From a virus, in the IMG/VR virus record IMGVR_UViG_3300025112_000211, positions 1 through 22,322 of that record: a stretch of DNA of 22,322 nucleotides. One strand, written 5' to 3'. Shown in pieces: positions 6,063 through 22,322 of this stretch. Both the position numbers and the translations under genes were made by a program. Position 1 is the stretch's first letter. Every line of letters starts with the position of its first letter. The notes under the pieces were generated by a model. That model worked only from the letters and a program-made list of their open reading frames with translations, did no database searches and had not been told where the DNA came from.

Positions 6063-6515
6063 CTACTTCCCTTCTTTTACGTCGCTCATATGAGCATTCC
6101 AATTTCCGCCAACAGCCCCGAACAAATTGGATATATCCACCCCTGCATCTTCAGGGGTTTGTCCAGATAGGGGGTGAGACTGTTGGCTAGGGCTAGCTTG
6201 GGTCGCAGCTGGGGTGGTGCCCTCAAAAAGATTCATACCATTATAGGCGTCTCCGCCAATGGCTTCCATTAATTTTGTTTTATGTTTTTTTAATTTATCA
6301 CTCTGTTGGGCGCTAAAAGCATTTCGCTTCATTCTTTCAAGAGTGGGGTCAGCCTTCGTCTCGGCGGTTTGCAATGAGGGCGCTGTTTGGGTTGTGCGCA
6401 TCCCGCGGGCAACTTCAGATATAAGACCCGAAAGTACTCCATCCTCAAATATTACTTCTTTTATACACTCTTTTATAAGAGGCTTTAAAATTTTCTTTAA
6501 TTCTGTCTTTTTCAT
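6063..6515 (-). CDS. putative prohead-core protein with N-terminal KE-rich helix
   Basis: 150 residues with no named family that I recognise. It begins with a basic amphipathic helix (MKKTELKKILKPLIKECIKE) resembling the IIKEEL-type tag of other proteins here. It contains two I-x-E triplets, which fit the (L/I)-x-E cleavage rule known for T4 gp21. The rest is hydrophilic and probably disordered: a TQTAPSLQTAETKADP stretch, a lysine-rich middle (SDKLKKHKTKLMEAIGG), then Gln/Ser/Pro-rich sequence. The gene lies just downstream of the prohead protease and the 157-residue protein, where scaffold or core genes occur in T4-like phages. No good Shine-Dalgarno sequence precedes the ATG, so translation may be coupled to the upstream gene. 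The core role is inferred from position and composition. Confidence 0.6.
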   Translation of the reverse strand: MKKTELKKILKPLIKECIKEVIFEDGVLSGLISEVARGMRTTQTAPSLQTAETKADPTLERMKRNAFSAQQSDKLKKHKTKLMEAIGGDAYNGMNLFEGTTPAATQASPSQQSHPLSGQTPEDAGVDISNLFGAVGGNWNAHMSDVKEGK

Positions 6516-6525
6516 TTAAAATGTT

Positions 6526-6999
6526 TTATTCTGTTAATTCACCGGATTCCAACTCGCGGATAATATTGTCAAAATCTGAAGTAATCATATCGATCTGCTC
6601 ATCGAGATCTATTCGCATAGTCTTAAGAGCTTGTTTTAACTCTTGAAAAACTGGTGATCTTAATAAACCGAGATCCTTCGCGTCTTGGTGTAATTCTTTG
6701 TTGAGACTGAGAGATCTTTTGGCGTGGGCGCGCCAGATCTTTGCGTACTTATTTTTATAAAGATCCAAAATTTTAGATTTTTTCCCTAGACTATAGGATG
6801 CACCAGGAGCAGTAGCAGAAGGAGGGGCTTCCCCGGTTGCCGCATATCTTGCTGCAGCTGCGCCGCGTTGAGCAACTCCTTTTGCGGCAGATCCGGCGCC
6901 GGCTACGCGAGCGCGCTGGCGGTCGAACCATCCTTCTTCAATAACAGCATTTATTTCTTCTTTGATAATCTGTTCCAATTCTTGTTTTAAAATTTCCAT
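6526..6999 (-). CDS. putative prohead-core / scaffold-like protein
   Basis: 157 residues. The N-terminal helix MEILKQELEQIIKEEINAV matches the tag on the three small proteins at 20764-21603. An alanine/glycine-rich low-complexity segment (residues 30-70) follows, then a charged helical half with a lysine-rich helix and an acidic end (DFDNIIRELESGELTE). AGGAG lies within the end of the protease gene, and the ATG begins three bases after that gene's stop. Position immediately after the gp21-like protease, a helical charged make-up and (I/L)-x-E triplets all suit a scaffold or core protein. No direct homology to T4 gp22 can be shown from the sequence alone. Confidence 0.6.
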   Translation of the reverse strand: MEILKQELEQIIKEEINAVIEEGWFDRQRARVAGAGSAAKGVAQRGAAAARYAATGEAPPSATAPGASYSLGKKSKILDLYKNKYAKIWRAHAKRSLSLNKELHQDAKDLGLLRSPVFQELKQALKTMRIDLDEQIDMITSDFDNIIRELESGELTE

Positions 7000-7002
7000 T
7001 TT

Positions 7003-7602
7003 TTAATCTCCTATAATCTCATTCATCAAGTTTATAAGCTTATTGTTCTTTTGAGCCTGTTCATTCATTAACTTATTCTCAGAAAGACTCATGAAGGCGC
7101 CCGGCGTAGAGGGTTCCGAAACAATATCAAAACAGATAAGCTGGAAATCATCTTCTACGATTGTCTTTCCCTGCTGTTCAGTAACGGAGCCCATACCTCT
7201 AGATGAAATACCAATCTTTACGCCGGCATCCACAAGAGCCCGTAGGATTTGGCCAGCAGGAGTGTTAAGTACCTGGCACTTCCCCATAACAGCGGGCCCG
7301 TCCATCCAAATGTCGATAACCATGTGAGAAACATTCGCCAGATTAACTATGGAAGATTCGGGATGGTCTAGCTCTCCAAGCGCGCGGCGCTCGTCAACAA
7401 CTTGAGCATACTTCTTAACTTCTCGTTGCATAATCGCTTCAGAATAAACGCGGCCGTTACCATTTTCACAACCGCCCTCTTGGAGCTTGCCCATAATGAA
7501 CATGGCGCCTTCTCGCACCATCTTCTTCTCGGCTTCCGTCAGTAAATCCTGACAGACGCCACCTTCGCAAAGTTCATAGTATTCTCGGAGAAGTTGGGGC
7601 AT
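7003..7602 (-). CDS. prohead core protease, T4 gp21 / S80-like
   Basis: 199 residues, about the usual size for T4-type prohead proteases. Family signatures: NGNGRVYSEAIM near residues 47-58, ALGELDHPESS with the likely catalytic histidine at 80, VSHMVIDIWMDG, VLNTPAGQIL, and KIGISSRGMGS carrying the likely nucleophile (Ser133 or 134). FDIVSEPSTPGAFMS at 158-172 is also typical. The enzyme is a serine endopeptidase made inside the prohead. It cleaves core and capsid proteins after (L/I)-x-E and then itself, clearing space for DNA. It lies between the tag-bearing 226-residue protein and two putative core proteins. A C-terminal asparagine/lysine-rich tail (NEQAQKNNKLINLMNEIIGD) could be removed on activation. 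Identification is confident; the exact residue roles are by family analogy. Confidence 0.9.
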   Translation of the reverse strand: MPQLLREYYELCEGGVCQDLLTEAEKKMVREGAMFIMGKLQEGGCENGNGRVYSEAIMQREVKKYAQVVDERRALGELDHPESSIVNLANVSHMVIDIWMDGPAVMGKCQVLNTPAGQILRALVDAGVKIGISSRGMGSVTEQQGKTIVEDDFQLICFDIVSEPSTPGAFMSLSENKLMNEQAQKNNKLINLMNEIIGD

Positions 7603-7606
7603 CGTG

Positions 7607-8287
7607 TTATTTACTCTTTAAAGTTCTCTTAATCTCTTCTCGGACTATTCGCTTGAGTTGGCCGCGAGTGAGGGATTCGTTCTGTCCCTGTTCTTTTCGG
7701 TACTGCTGGAATTCCTTTGGGTGCAACTTGACCCATTTCTCGCTGTCCGCATTGGCTTGGTCGAAGATGGGCTGGCGGCCAGGTTCGCCTAGGGGCGGCC
7801 CAGAATCGATAGCCGCTTGGATGGAATCCTGCACGTGATCATACGTTGGGAGCTTCATGCGGCCATGGGGATCGTCAGGCGTACCGTGTTTCTTCGCCCA
7901 CGCGCCTCCGGGCTTGAACAACTCCTTCCGCGCTCTTGATGATCCCGGGATTTCAGGGCCAGGAGCCGCGGCAGCCTTTGCGGCGGGAGCACCCTTCCCC
8001 TGGTCCCGGGCATCGTCGGAGATCCCGGAGTCGCCCCCGAGTCCCTCGGGGCCCGGACCCTGGCGCTGCACTGCATGGGGCCCGGTCAGACCAGGGCTTC
8101 CGCGGCGGCGTTGCTCTTTGCCCCATTCGTCCGCGTCTGCGCCGCCGGTGACACTGCGGTGATACTTTGCGTAATCCGCTCCGGTAGGACCGTAGCGGCC
8201 CTCTTCAAGCTCTTCCTCTCCGCGATTCACTGTCTCGTCCAAGAAGTATCTCGGATCAATTCTTTTTACATTTTTTCTGCGTGCCAT
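7607..8287 (-). CDS. hydrophilic protein with C-terminal KRIVREEI helix
   Basis: 226 residues; no family recognised. It starts MARRKNVKRIDPRYFLDE, supported by AGAGGA upstream. Residues 40-135 are rich in glycine, proline, alanine, arginine and aspartate and probably disordered. The DNA there (about 7860-8120) is clearly more GC-rich than its neighbours. The C-terminus has a more ordered segment (KLPTYDHVQDSIQAAIDSG, EKWVKLHPKEFQQYRKEQ). It ends LTRGQLKRIVREEIKRTLKSK, a close relative of the N-terminal IIKEEL tag but here at the opposite end. It sits between a membrane protein and the prohead protease, so a prohead-core or internal-protein role is plausible but unproven. Confidence 0.6.
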   Translation of the reverse strand: MARRKNVKRIDPRYFLDETVNRGEEELEEGRYGPTGADYAKYHRSVTGGADADEWGKEQRRRGSPGLTGPHAVQRQGPGPEGLGGDSGISDDARDQGKGAPAAKAAAAPGPEIPGSSRARKELFKPGGAWAKKHGTPDDPHGRMKLPTYDHVQDSIQAAIDSGPPLGEPGRQPIFDQANADSEKWVKLHPKEFQQYRKEQGQNESLTRGQLKRIVREEIKRTLKSK

Positions 8288-17542: not shown

Positions 17543-20500
17543 TTACTGGCTAACGCGGGCGTATCCATTATCTTTGTCAATTGTGATCTCCAGATCTACT
17601 ATATCTTTCAGGGAGTCAACGTGTGAGATAAGTATAACTGTCTTAAAATACATTTTAATTAATTGGAGGATGCGTATAAAGCCTTCCATATTTTCAGCAT
17701 CAAGAGCAGTTCCCGGCTCATCGAGGATAAAAATATTTCCCTTCGGAAGATTAGAAACACTAAGAAGAGCCAAACGAATTCCCATGGCAGCAATTGTTTT
17801 TTCCGCTCCGGAGCCCATTTCAATTGAGCGAGGCTCGTGCTTGGGGTGTTTAATAAGAATATCTAATTTGCGGCCATCCTCTTGAAAGAAAACCTCGAAA
17901 TCAACAATATTAGAAATAACTTTAGCAATCTCTTCGTTAATGATAGGGAGCCGCTTCTTAATAATATCATAAGCAATTCCATTGGAATGCGCACAACGCA
18001 TAAACAAATCATAAGCAGCATACTCCTCACGAATGTTGGTGCGCTCTACCTTTTTTTCTCTTAAAGACTCGACCTTTTGTTCAAGCGATCCGATGCTGCG
18101 GTGATGCTGGTTTATATAATCTTCACATGCTACTATAGAATCTTTAGTAGAGTCGATACTCTCTTGAACGCTGGTACGCTCAGAAAGTAACTTTTCAATA
18201 TTCTTAATTAACTCTCTTTTCTCTTCGTATAAATCAATCTTCTCGTTTGTAGCAAAAAAATCATTTTTATAGTTCTTGATTTTTGCATATAATTTTTCAA
18301 TAGAAACTCTATTATCACGTTTTTCAATTTCAAAATTATTCTTTTGTATAATAATTCCGTTATACTTGTCGATTAGTTCTATAAGTTCTGCTGAATTAGC
18401 CGAAACCATTTTAGTCTTATACCCCTTTGCTTCTTCTATTCTATCAATTATGTCCACTTCAAGTGATGGAATTTCTACAGTGGCCAAATGGGCATCACGA
18501 ATAAACTGACACATTGGATACTCAGACCCACACGGGACCTCGTCTAATAATGAAATCTTTTTACTCATTGTCTTATATTCATTGTCTAGCAATCTAGCAC
18601 GAGAAACAATATCCTCATAATTATTTTTAAATTCATCAAATTCTTTTTTCTGATCTAATAGTTCTTCAATATCAATAGTAGTGAGGAAGTCATCATACTT
18701 TTTGAGCTTTCTATCATAATCGGCATTCTCGCTTTTGAGTTCAACTATATTAATGTTAGTATCTTCAATTTTATTTTCAAGTGCTGTTCGTGTTTCTAGC
18801 AAAGATTTAATATCAAGACGCTCTGCGGGAATAGAATCGATTTGCTCTGTCAAAGAAATATATTCTAATTCTGCGTTAGATAAGTCTTGCCTCAGTTCGT
18901 CACAGATAACAACTTCTTTACCCAAATCTATTTGTGCTTCATCCCTCTGAAGTTCAGCAATTGCTATATCATTATCATAGTTAGTGTCCGCAAGACGCCG
19001 ATGGAGGGCTTTAAGATCTGCTGAGTCTTCTTGAGCTAGCTTAAACTTTCTTTCAAAAATCTCTAAATCCAAGAACTTAGCGAGGATTTCCTTCCTACGA
19101 GTAGAGCCCTCTTTAATAAACGATAAATTATCAAGCTGACTCGACATTGAAGTAAGCAAGAAGTCCTCAACTGTTCCAAACCGCTTCCGAATTTGAGCAT
19201 CTGTCTCGACGCGGCTTAAGCCATTAAGGCTTGTTGGTTCCCCCACTTCCGGGTCAAGGCCCGAGAACTCCAGATTTGTCTTGGCTTCGTTAGATACAAC
19301 GCCCTTTAGTTTCTTTACATACTTCTCAGAAGTTCGCTCAATGGAATATGTTTTATCACCAATTTGTAATTCAACAGATCCTCGGCAATCTTTTGTATGC
19401 TGGTTAATAATGTTATAATTCTTACGTTCATTCTTCGACGTAGTATTAAACATTGTATAAAGTAATCCATCAATAATACTAGATTTTCCTGAAAAATTCT
19501 TTCCGAAAATGCCAACGATTCCATTTAGTTTAGAGAAATCAACACTGTTGCCAACGCCGTAATTGAACAGATTATCCCATTCAAATTTATTAAGGCTCCA
19601 GTTAATGTTGCGTGCGACTTCTTCGGTCTCCTCAATCTGTGAGTTATACTTACGATTAAGATCGAATACTCGTTCCAACATCTCCTCGGATGGTTCATAG
19701 TCCGTAAGATATTCCCTTATAAGATTCTGCTGAACTCCTTTGTCTCGTAAATTCTCGACCTTAAAAGTCTTTCCAATCTCAACTGTCCCACGTTCCCCCG
19801 CTGCACGATTTAAGAACGTGATGCTCTCCGGCTTAAAGCGATGTTTTGCAATATCAACTGCCTTGCGCATTACATCCAGTGGTAAGTTGTTGTTGCTGAC
19901 AAGTCGTAAACGGGCGCTCGAGGGGACATTGGTCTTCCTGGGTATCCTCCCTTTTGGTGTGAGTTCGAGTGTTACGAATGGTTTTGGATTGAGCAAAACA
20001 TGATGTTTCACACTGAAAGAATCTTTATCTTCAATTTCCCAAATCAAGAATCCCTTATCATTTGTCTCGCCATGATTCTGTTGAACAGTTGAGCCAGGGT
20101 ATCTCACGCGACCATCCTCGTCGAGGATCTGGTTTGTCTTATGAATATCGCCAAGTAACGCATAGTCGTGATCGCCAAAGATGCCCACGTCGTGATCACC
20201 GTGAGTCATCACCCATCCGGTGTCGGTCTTCACACCCGAAACAGAGCCGTGATAAAGCGCGATGTTTATTCTCTTAGGATCGCTCGGCTTAACCCAGTTT
20301 TCCTCATCAAAAACCGATAGCACGTTAAAGGCGATGTGCGGCCCTACAAGGACTTCTCCTGCGTTCTTAAGCAGATGTAGGTCCGGCAAGTTTAAAGCCT
20401 TCACAATCGGTGTGAGGGCGTCCTGACGCGTGCTATTCTTTAAGTTGCCGTCGTGGTTGCCCAAAATGATGTATGTGGGCGCGATGCTAGCTAGATTTGC

Positions 20501-20695
20501 AAAGAAGTCGGAGCAAAGCTCAACGAACTCTGGGGAAATCTGTGTCTTGGTGTGGGCGATGTCGCCGCAGTGTACGATGTAGTCTACGTTTTCTTTTCGT
20601 AGTGTTTCATATAATTGATCGAATACGATCTTATACTCGTAATGAAACTTTAAATTCTTTATGTGTGTGTCTGCTATGTGTGCTATCTTGTACAA
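17543..20695 (-). CDS. single-chain Mre11-Rad50 (gp47-gp46 / SbcD-SbcC) nuclease
   Basis: A single 1050-codon frame. Residues 1-250 hold the Mre11 phosphoesterase motifs: Asp9-x-His11 (IADTH), Asp45 (HCGDIAH), Asn80-His81-Asp82 (LGNHD), His149 (LYHG) and GDIH at 182-185. Rad50 follows: Walker A GKNFSGKS at 398-405, a long coiled coil, a CGSEYPMC hook at 722-729, the second coil, signature MGSGAEKT near 960, Walker B with LDEPGTALD near 991, and a switch histidine at about 1025. In T4 the two activities are separate proteins, gp47 and gp46. The complex resects DNA ends for recombination-dependent replication. The start is TTG with AGGGGA at 20703-20708, seven bases upstream, and a sigma70 promoter about 30 bases away. 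All catalytic motifs appear intact. Confidence 0.92.
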   Translation of the reverse strand: MYKIAHIADTHIKNLKFHYEYKIVFDQLYETLRKENVDYIVHCGDIAHTKTQISPEFVELCSDFFANLASIAPTYIILGNHDGNLKNSTRQDALTPIVKALNLPDLHLLKNAGEVLVGPHIAFNVLSVFDEENWVKPSDPKRINIALYHGSVSGVKTDTGWVMTHGDHDVGIFGDHDYALLGDIHKTNQILDEDGRVRYPGSTVQQNHGETNDKGFLIWEIEDKDSFSVKHHVLLNPKPFVTLELTPKGRIPRKTNVPSSARLRLVSNNNLPLDVMRKAVDIAKHRFKPESITFLNRAAGERGTVEIGKTFKVENLRDKGVQQNLIREYLTDYEPSEEMLERVFDLNRKYNSQIEETEEVARNINWSLNKFEWDNLFNYGVGNSVDFSKLNGIVGIFGKNFSGKSSIIDGLLYTMFNTTSKNERKNYNIINQHTKDCRGSVELQIGDKTYSIERTSEKYVKKLKGVVSNEAKTNLEFSGLDPEVGEPTSLNGLSRVETDAQIRKRFGTVEDFLLTSMSSQLDNLSFIKEGSTRRKEILAKFLDLEIFERKFKLAQEDSADLKALHRRLADTNYDNDIAIAELQRDEAQIDLGKEVVICDELRQDLSNAELEYISLTEQIDSIPAERLDIKSLLETRTALENKIEDTNINIVELKSENADYDRKLKKYDDFLTTIDIEELLDQKKEFDEFKNNYEDIVSRARLLDNEYKTMSKKISLLDEVPCGSEYPMCQFIRDAHLATVEIPSLEVDIIDRIEEAKGYKTKMVSANSAELIELIDKYNGIIIQKNNFEIEKRDNRVSIEKLYAKIKNYKNDFFATNEKIDLYEEKRELIKNIEKLLSERTSVQESIDSTKDSIVACEDYINQHHRSIGSLEQKVESLREKKVERTNIREEYAAYDLFMRCAHSNGIAYDIIKKRLPIINEEIAKVISNIVDFEVFFQEDGRKLDILIKHPKHEPRSIEMGSGAEKTIAAMGIRLALLSVSNLPKGNIFILDEPGTALDAENMEGFIRILQLIKMYFKTVILISHVDSLKDIVDLEITIDKDNGYARVSQ

Positions 20696-20763: not shown

Positions 20764-21012
20764 TTAATCGCGATACATCTGGTTGCCCAACAGGTTGTCC
20801 AGATAAGCAATGACTTCTTCGTCACCGCCCAAACCGAGCTTCTCGGCAGCAGCTGCTCCACCTTCGCCGACGCCAATGTTTGAAACGATCAAGAGTTTGT
20901 TTAGCAGTCGCTCCTCAGGAGTGCCACCTTCGTGGCGGGGCTCCGTCTGAAGGTCACCTAAGCCGAGTTCTTCCTTGATAATCTCTTTTAGTCTTTGTTT
21001 GGTTAGTTTCAT
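20764..21012 (-). CDS. small tag-bearing protein 1 (82 aa)
   Basis: Begins MKLTKQRLKEIIKEELGLGD, the tag shared with the next two genes, with 45 nearly identical 5' bases. After the tag comes an acidic linker (TEPRHEGGTPEERL), a helix (LLNKLLIVSNIGVGEGGAAA) and a helical end (EVIAYLDNLLGNQMYRD). No family recognised, no membrane segment. GGAG lies eight bases before the ATG. It is the last gene of the small tag-bearing cluster, just upstream of the sigma70 promoter. It may be an internal virion protein or a short regulator; no function can be assigned. Confidence 0.65.
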   Translation of the reverse strand: MKLTKQRLKEIIKEELGLGDLQTEPRHEGGTPEERLLNKLLIVSNIGVGEGGAAAAEKLGLGGDEEVIAYLDNLLGNQMYRD

Positions 21013-21015
21013 TTT

Positions 21016-21291
21016 TTATGCTCCAAGTCGATCGACGAGGCCGCCGAGCTTTGCGAGTTCTTTGGATGTTAATTCTTGACTCTCAAGCTGCTTAATCGTC
21101 GACGCCACTAGTTCTGGATTTTGAGAAGCTGGCATATTTTCTAATCTCGCAACAAGGTCCGACCTAATGGTGCCCGGGTCTTCTCCTGGCGGGAACTCTT
21201 CGTACCCCGGTCGTTCCCAGGCCGGGAGGCGGGCTTCATTAGCCAGCTCTTCCCTAATAATCTCTTTGAGTCTTTGCCTAGTGATTTTCAT
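21016..21291 (-). CDS. small tag-bearing protein 2 (91 aa)
   Basis: Begins MKITRQRLKEIIREELANEA, the shared tag. Next comes a proline- and glutamate-rich segment (LPAWERPGYEEFPPGEDPG) and then a helical domain (TIRSDLVARLENMPA, then ELVASTIKQLESQELTSKEL). No family recognised. GGAG lies a few bases before the ATG and the gene is separated by three bases from each neighbour. Its body is unrelated to those of the two flanking tagged proteins, so the conserved part is the N-terminal module rather than a whole-gene duplication. Confidence 0.65.
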   Translation of the reverse strand: MKITRQRLKEIIREELANEARLPAWERPGYEEFPPGEDPGTIRSDLVARLENMPASQNPELVASTIKQLESQELTSKELAKLGGLVDRLGA

Positions 21292-21294
21292 TTA

Positions 21295-21603
21295 TCACTC
21301 CGCCAGAGACAGTCGGCCGGCCGGTATCGTTTCCTTTCTAGGGTGCTGCGGATCATCCCAATTTACGTCGGCCACCCAGCCGGCTTTGTTATGCTTCCAA
21401 ACGCTATGTATGGTTCCTTCGCCGCGGCCCGGGGCCGAGACGCGCTGCTTCTCCTGAAAAGGTTTTTCGTCTCGAGAAGGGCCTCGTGGCGCGGCGCCGG
21501 TGCCTAGGCCGTGTTGCTTCGACGCACTAGCCCAATCGCCTTCACTCAGGGCGCCCAGTTCTTCCTTAATAATCTCTCTTAGTCTTTGTTTGGTGATTTT
21601 CAT
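21295..21603 (-). CDS. small tag-bearing protein 3 (102 aa)
   Basis: Begins MKITKQRLREIIKEELGALS, the shared tag. A disordered glycine-, arginine- and proline-rich linker follows (KQHGLGTGAAPRGPSRDEKP). The C-terminal 40 residues form a likely small beta-barrel: GTIHSVWKHNKAGWVADVNW, DDPQHPRKETIPAGRLSLAE. This pattern resembles SH3-like or KOW-type barrels that bind protein or nucleic acid, as inference only. AGGAG lies seven bases ahead of the ATG. The arrangement of tag, flexible linker and compact domain suggests that the tag delivers the domain to a location or partner. Confidence 0.65.
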   Translation of the reverse strand: MKITKQRLREIIKEELGALSEGDWASASKQHGLGTGAAPRGPSRDEKPFQEKQRVSAPGRGEGTIHSVWKHNKAGWVADVNWDDPQHPRKETIPAGRLSLAE

Positions 21604-21773: not shown

Positions 21774-22322
21774 TTACACTGACATTGCAAGTGTCAACAA
21801 TAAATAGTTGTCCGAAGTGATAAGGGTCGCATTTTCCAGGCATTTCTGGAATTGCTCTTTGCTCATGGAGCCCACATCGTCGTTGTCGGCGATGTCCACC
21901 TTCCATACTTCAATGTCAAAATCCAATAAAGTCTTGATAATCTCGAGTTCTTTTTTCTTTGCATCAGGATCGAGAGCAATGTAGACTCCTGCGTCTTCTT
22001 TAACAATTTTCCTCAACAATAATGAACTTTGGTTTAATGTGGATCCAAGAACAGGAACTGCATTACGGCCCGCGATAATTGCATCAAAAACTCCTTCAAC
22101 AAGAATTATATCCGAGCTCCAATCAACGAACAAATCGTTGAATATAATATTTTTACTTGCGGGCGGATTTTTATATTTTGGATAAAACGCTTTATCATAA
22201 GATCTGGAAACGAAATAACTCAAATCACCCTCTTCATCAAACGATGGAATAATGATTCGTCCTTCGTATTCTCCTTGACTACAGTAGCCCATTTTCCACC
22301 AAACAATATCTTGCTTGCTGAT
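21774..22322 (-). CDS. DnaG-like primase, C-terminal part (5' end beyond window)
   Basis: 182 codons are visible and the frame is open at the right edge; the visible part begins ISKQDIVWWKMGYCSQGEYE. Typical bacterial and phage primase core features follow: EGRIIIPSFDEEGDLSYFVS, then RSYD and YPKYKNPPASKNIIF. The TOPRIM glutamate lies in IILVEGVFDAI (residue 76 of the visible part) and the metal-binding D-x-D in YIALDPDAKKK (118-120). The enzyme makes RNA primers for lagging-strand synthesis. The chain ends about 60 residues after D-x-D, so the DnaB-interaction domain of bacterial DnaG is absent. The zinc-binding and N-terminal parts would lie beyond the edge. The next gene's ribosome binding site overlaps its stop. 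Confidence 0.85.
   Translation of the reverse strand: MSKQDIVWWKMGYCSQGEYEGRIIIPSFDEEGDLSYFVSRSYDKAFYPKYKNPPASKNIIFNDLFVDWSSDIILVEGVFDAIIAGRNAVPVLGSTLNQSSLLLRKIVKEDAGVYIALDPDAKKKELEIIKTLLDFDIEVWKVDIADNDDVGSMSKEQFQKCLENATLITSDNYLLLTLAMSV

Follow-up and report, generated by a model that had tools for sequence, protein, structure and literature searches.

The tagged genes and their surroundings

The window, which is the whole 22,322-base stretch of DNA analysed here, is a fragment of a T4-like genome from an IMG/VR virus, an uncultivated marine relative of T4. Three adjacent minus-strand ORFs at 20764-21603 share the start MK(I/L)T(K/R)QRL(K/R)EII(K/R)EEL, here called the class A tag, and continue into unrelated bodies (Table 1). 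Reading the three ORFs and matching the motif pattern confirmed the original prediction that consecutive genes carry a common 5' module in front of unrelated bodies. The module had also been described as near-identical. This is truer of the protein than of the DNA, since the first 45 nt of the three modules are 80-91% identical when counted from the sequences; a repeat finder places the array repeats in a single 59-nt family with 75-85% identity. A control pattern, the motif read backwards, had no match in the window, in 28 related contigs or in IMG/VR, and the tag module is thus far above chance.

Searches of Pfam and PHROGs found no domain in any of the three bodies, and the body of the first gene has no relatives in IMG/VR. 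The body types proposed earlier (a helical domain, an acidic helical protein and a probable beta-barrel) find little support: a single-sequence AlphaFold model of the 102-residue protein has four strands, with a mean pLDDT of 52, a confidence that does not warrant searching by fold.

The array is bordered by genes for a primase and for an SbcD/SbcC-like protein, and the start of the same SbcCD ORF adjoins the tag arrays of relatives. Small proteins somewhat like the hydrophobic product encoded between the array and the primase adjoin tags in loci L470 and L472. The window also contains a T4-type head module and a prohead core protease of the Peptidase_S77 family, which is presumably the enzyme that cleaves the tags. 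Further tag copies, overlooked in the original prediction, lie at the start of the gene in the T4 gp22 slot, at the C-terminus of the gene in the gp68 slot and, more loosely, in the gene that follows the gp22 slot. The gp22-slot gene is tagged in relatives too (L011, L013, L016, L022 and others). The gp68-slot protein starts with MARRKNVKRIDPRYFLDET and ends with GQLKRIVREEIKRTLKSK.

Table 1. Positions of the array, its borders and other genes of the window.
Feature	Position	Strand	Remarks
Primase, outer border of array	21774..22292	-	PHROG 47 E 1.5e-30; same border in L306, L309, L310, L466-L469
Hydrophobic 48-aa protein, probable membrane protein	21759-21613	-	between array and primase
Tagged gene 1, 102 aa	21295..21603	-	tag MKITKQRLREIIKEEL, then GALSE followed by G; possible second L-x-E at residue 21
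Class A tag module of gene 1, codons 1-15	21559..21603	-	exact pattern match
Tagged gene 2, 91 aa	21016..21291	-	tag MKITRQRLKEIIREEL, then linker ANEARLPAWERPGYEE
Tag module of gene 2	21247..21291	-	pattern match
Tagged gene 3, 82 aa	20764..21012	-	tag MKLTKQRLKEIIKEEL; body GLGDLQTEPRHEGGTPEERLLNKLL...
Tag module of gene 3	20968..21012	-	pattern match
SbcD/SbcC-like nuclease-ATPase, inner border of array	17543..20695	-	PHROG 77 and 100; SbcD-like nuclease and SbcC-like ATPase (T4 gp47, gp46 types) in one 1050-aa ORF; same border in relatives
Fibre-like gene	16432-14783	-	C-terminal C1q domain
TerL	13535-11949	-	part of T4-type head module
Portal	11945-10008	-	part of T4-type head module
Gene directly upstream of protease (T4 gp68 slot)	7607..8287	-	class C start MARRKNVKRIDPRYFLDETVNR; class A-like C-terminus GQLKRIVREEIKRTLKSK
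Prohead core protease, Peptidase_S77 (T4 gp21 type)	7003..7602	-	Pfam PF03420 E 2.6e-29, PHROG 207 E 2.5e-55
Gene directly downstream of protease (T4 gp22 slot)	6526..6999	-	class A tag MEILKQELEQIIKEEI, same register (L8, I11, I12, E14)
Next gene	6063..6515	-	start MKKTELKKILKPLIKECIKEVIFEDG, tag-like helix; kept in same slot in relatives
Ribosomal protein bS21	6055-5834	-	Pfam Ribosomal_S21 E 1e-9; three genes past prohead protease
Fibre-like gene	5264-3333	-	

Tag classes and their exchange

Other starts of 14-18 residues have the same ending as class A, namely MKLIMENWRKFLNE, MARRKNVKRIDPRYFLNE and MKHLREYIRQILLE. Class B has a consensus near MKLIMENWRKFLNE, with Trp, Phe/Tyr, Leu and Glu at positions -6, -3, -2 and 0, respectively; its start Met lies at -13 in 77%. 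In 30 of 75 loci, class C (MARRKNVKRIDPRYFLNETVNR) stands ahead of the protease, on bodies that differ. A fourth class (D), MKHLRxYIRxILxE, was seen in L477. Matches of the aromatic-tag regex in ribonucleotide reductase and in a baseplate-like family were judged by eye to be chance and discounted.

Tags of different sequence are found on the same body. One body (GDVILTGRFKNKRTIVKxIG...) stands behind MKITKLQLRRIIAE, MKKLLTEWRKYLNE and MKHLREYIRQILLE in L195, L182 and L477; each of these tags is 14 residues long and ends in Glu, and the homology of the bodies sets in directly behind Glu14, identity being back within a few residues. Likewise, a protease-flanking core protein has a class A tag in L052 and a class B tag in L082 and L083. 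The linker EARLPAWERPGY recurs behind tags on different bodies in L470-L474, suggesting that the exchanged module can reach beyond the tag.

The linker EARLPAWERPGYxPEPG comes straight after class A tags on differing bodies in L470-L474, and tandem class C genes adjoin it. In L466:2560-3363 (+), an in-frame fusion of two tagged proteins has left one whole tag inside the ORF.

At the amino acids shared by the three window copies, the codon is identical in 27 of 37 comparisons, which are not fully independent, where codon usage would predict a fraction of 0.434 (P = 4e-4). The modules thus seem to have been copied as DNA and conserved as protein, and the agreement would fit DNA copying as well as protein selection. 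The 5' module might instead be a nucleic-acid element, such as a translation leader, a regulatory site or a recombination hot spot, with the peptide incidental. That modules do recombine, and that codon identity exceeds expectation between genomes as well (0.536), would agree with such an element. We regard it as most improbable, because the protein positions are kept across contigs whereas the codons differ, the motif is found at C-termini too, and unrelated DNA, coding for another peptide with this layout, takes its place on the same body.

Anatomy of the tag and its likeness to T4 capsid-targeting sequences

Information content, taken over 228 tagged proteins, is high up to residue 16, modest to about residue 22 and near zero beyond. 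The alignment of 101 tagged proteins holds for roughly the first 15 residues and no further, and mean column identity is 6%. The fixed class A positions are M1, K2, I/L3, T/S4, L8, I11, I12, E14 and E15. I/L-x-E14 is present in 95% of the 228, a figure partly selected by the search pattern. Since the pattern itself selected several fixed positions, the finding free of this selection is that of a second [LIM]-x-E at residues 17-28, present in 53% of tagged proteins and in 7-16% of body windows. The residue after the Glu of this second site is A, G, N or S above background.

The endings fit the cleavage rule of T4 gp21, which cuts after L/I-x-E (PMC9026906). The major capsid protein of T4 gp23 type, present in 23 of 24 contigs, has a conserved NQAKELLRE followed by A, S or T in its N-terminal region, which also fits L-x-E. 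The residue after I-x-E14 is mostly Glu (81-91%), and in the T4 internal protein sites examined it is Ala, which counts against a capsid-targeting reading of the tag. Given the usual Glu after Glu14, cleavage may take place mainly at residues 21-22. Among the array proteins of the window, only that of the first gene has a second site (LSE followed by G at 21). An orthologue of the third gene in L467 has MNE followed by G at 21, at a place where the copy in the window is shorter by six residues.

T4 ipII and ipIII both start with MKTYQEFIAEA on unrelated bodies, the same anatomy as the tag here. When aligned on the Glu, their Y4/F7/I8/E10 correspond to L8/I11/I12/E14 of class A and W8/F11/L12/E14 of class B. 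In the T4 capsid-targeting sequence (CTS), residues 4 and 7 are mainly responsible for targeting and residues 8 and 10 for processing (PMC9026906, a review of Black's work). Classes A and B and the class D example fit at all four positions (-6, -3, -2 and 0). Class C fits at -3, -2 and 0 only and has no hydrophobic residue at -6, which counts against the capsid-targeting reading.

The CTSs of T4 IPI, IPII, IPIII and Alt are likewise short N-terminal modules on unrelated bodies, with an L/I-x-E ending for the S77 protease. The likeness is one of layout: the sequence differs here, and T4 has no class A match. The systems also differ in scale and arrangement. T4 has three internal proteins plus Alt, whereas up to 24 class A genes are found per contig here. 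The arrays occupy fixed slots, several classes occur in one genome, a second L-x-E near 21-22 is frequent and some copies are C-terminal. By analogy, the tags would follow the same logic as the T4 CTS in a different sequence; common descent of the tags is not claimed.

A similar arrangement was described in the giant phage SPN3US, in which gp53 and gp54 have an identical 15-residue N-terminus that was likened to T4 CTSs (PMC5694885). In giant phages of the phiKZ/SPN3US type, head-protein propeptides are also removed after x-x-E by the prohead protease (PMC5694885). Those propeptides are mostly longer than 100 residues and end in A-x-E or S/A/G-x-E. The tags here are 14-22 residues long and end in I/L-x-E, which places them outside that type by length and by the I/L at P3.

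Tagged genes next to the prohead protease

In 80 loci fetched by protease similarity alone, tagged N-termini were found in 82 of 221 genes at positions -2, -1 and +1 from the protease and in 14 of 722 genes elsewhere (P 5e-43, phylogeny not corrected). In T4, gp67, gp68 and gp22 occupy the slots around the protease. Judging from gene position, the tagged genes in these slots probably encode prohead core proteins. The T4 proteins also have L/I-x-E sites, and gp22 starts with MLKEQLIAEA. Unlike them, the slot proteins here share their tag families with the distant cargo arrays and differ markedly in body from one relative to another.

Some core-slot proteins are tagged at both ends (L008:10581-11378, L026:10454-11224 and L027:9006-9767, all on the plus strand), with MLISENELEELIKEEI... 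at the start and ...LKRIIREELESLSE at the end. They are reminiscent of T4 Alt, which undergoes two-ended processing (PMC9026906).

Distribution of the class A tag

The exact DNA pattern of the tag was found in more than 119 IMG/VR stretches among the matches listed. A relaxed pattern, applied to 28 related contigs that had been selected by tag or protease, found 1-17 tags in each of 25; the largest class A count is 24 genes in one contig. Because the backward pattern gave no IMG/VR contigs, 49 control contigs were drawn with an unrelated arbitrary pattern, and none of them has a class A tag. Of 28 large tag-bearing contigs, 19 contain the S77 protease, against 7 of the 33 controls that measure 30 kb or more (Fisher P 3e-4), a comparison in which lengths and habitats were not matched. 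All 10 tag-bearing contigs of at least 145 kb contain it. Two observations count against the capsid-targeting reading: no S77 was seen in 9 of the 28 tag-bearing contigs, and control contigs have S77 without a class A tag.

A scan of 257 Gb of prokaryote genomes matched 9 stretches, on contigs of five MAGs. Those that were read are phage-like tag arrays, and one contig of 305,838 bases also carries S77. The tag thus appears to be phage-specific, its matches being restricted to phage. Contigs of phage character binned into bacterial MAGs include L477 and L480; the latter, a 101-kb contig binned as a Halobacteriovorax MAG, has about a dozen successive tagged genes.

A tblastn search of cultured phages with the 22-residue tag gave no matches, the query being too short to be informative, and the whole records of 13 phages were therefore searched by pattern. 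Class A is absent from these records, which comprise T4 and twelve phages whose proteases are related, among them P-SSM2, Cr30 and a Flavobacterium phage; this absence counts against the capsid-targeting reading. Cr30 has one class B-like match. A literature search for the tag strings found no paper in the searched library that prints the motifs in a phage context.

Bodies behind the tags

Homologues of the third gene's body were found in four contigs (L466-L469) and those of the second gene's body in five; all are tagged. The original prediction had named equally common tag-less homologues as evidence against a tag. Instead, 131 of 185 distinct homologues start with class A, class B or a tag-like sequence, the last being a loose class. 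Of the remaining 54, some have degenerate tags, some are regex false positives and some are enzymes that truly lack a tag. In the slot between primase and SbcCD, bodies turn over between relatives.

Few domains were recognised among 101 class A proteins: AAA_33/polynucleotide kinase, GNAT, ParB-like nuclease and LysM. Class B proteins include a SAM lyase, a protein kinase, a nucleotidyltransferase and a PNK 3'-phosphatase-like domain, as domain matches and not as activities. Some of the putative cargo resembles host-takeover enzymes, namely the SAM lyase, protein kinase, nucleotidyltransferase, polynucleotide kinase and ParB-like nuclease. About 80% of the cargo has no known domain, which counts against the reading as injected cargo.

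The tagged small proteins might also be building blocks of the prohead core, i.e. scaffold paralogues whose helix self-assembles the core and whose bodies are spacers destroyed at maturation rather than cargo. The tags on core-slot genes flanking the protease, the tags at both ends of some core proteins (e.g. L008, L026, L027) and the mostly small bodies without known domain are what such a scaffold would predict. It would not predict recognisable enzymes and nucleic-acid-acting domains behind tags, same-slot bodies that turn over between relatives, or arrays that lie at a distance from the head module and reach a dozen genes, and we consider this explanation unlikely.

Alternatively, the helix may send the proteins elsewhere (the membrane, the replisome or a phage nucleus-like shell) or mark them for degradation. 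A short amphipathic helix is compatible with binding to a membrane or a partner, and the array does sit between primase and an SbcCD-like gene. Another destination would not predict the protease-flanking slots, the L/I-x-E endings or the T4 register, and similar arrays lie at other genomic positions. Such a destination is very unlikely, and no support was found for the membrane or replisome targeting that had been proposed for the window genes.

Proposed role of the tags

We propose, with a probability of about 0.75, that the tag is part of a multi-class, much expanded capsid-targeting-sequence system of the T4 internal-protein type. The earlier suggestion that the module is copied as a tag and recalls the targeting of T4 internal proteins is thus supported, by the L/I-x-E ending, the presence of S77, the slots beside the protease, the exchange of tags and the tagging of homologues in nine of nine contigs. 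The first 14-22 residues would fold as a short amphipathic helix and attach to the prohead core during head assembly, and any body fused behind this helix would be loaded into the prohead. The S77 protease of the phage would then cut after the Glu of I/L-x-E at residue 14, at the L-x-E near 21-22, or at both. This would remove the tag and free the body inside the head, from which it would be ejected with the DNA. Recombination behind the tag could bring in new cargo and give rise to arrays of small tagged genes with fast-changing bodies, while the arrays would keep their fixed slots, between primase and SbcCD and beside the protease.

A broader proposal is more tentative, and we hold it as possible. 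A widespread lineage of uncultivated T4-like phages may run a general protein delivery system, in which several interchangeable tags, each ending at a cleavable Glu near residue 14, fill the head of each phage with dozens of different small proteins for injection, anti-restriction and host-takeover enzymes among them, and in which cargo turns over by recombination behind constant tags. If so, residues 1-14 alone would predict which phage proteins ride in the virion and enter the host first, and many hypothetical genes of uncultivated marine phages would gain a location and a likely role. The tags would point to injected anti-defence or takeover proteins and could provide new cargo-loading tags. 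The number of proteins delivered per T4-type head and the evolution of cargo sets would become testable.

Other features of the window

The gene for ribosomal protein bS21 lies close to the protease. The same neighbourhood of bS21 has been described (PMC9723584), and it is also annotated in Microcystis phage Mel-JY01. The two fibre-like genes of the window, which lie far apart, share a near-identical stretch, NVAAGTDNTVLVYNGSSIVTDEIDSRVWGSTLVD, and their proteins are otherwise different.
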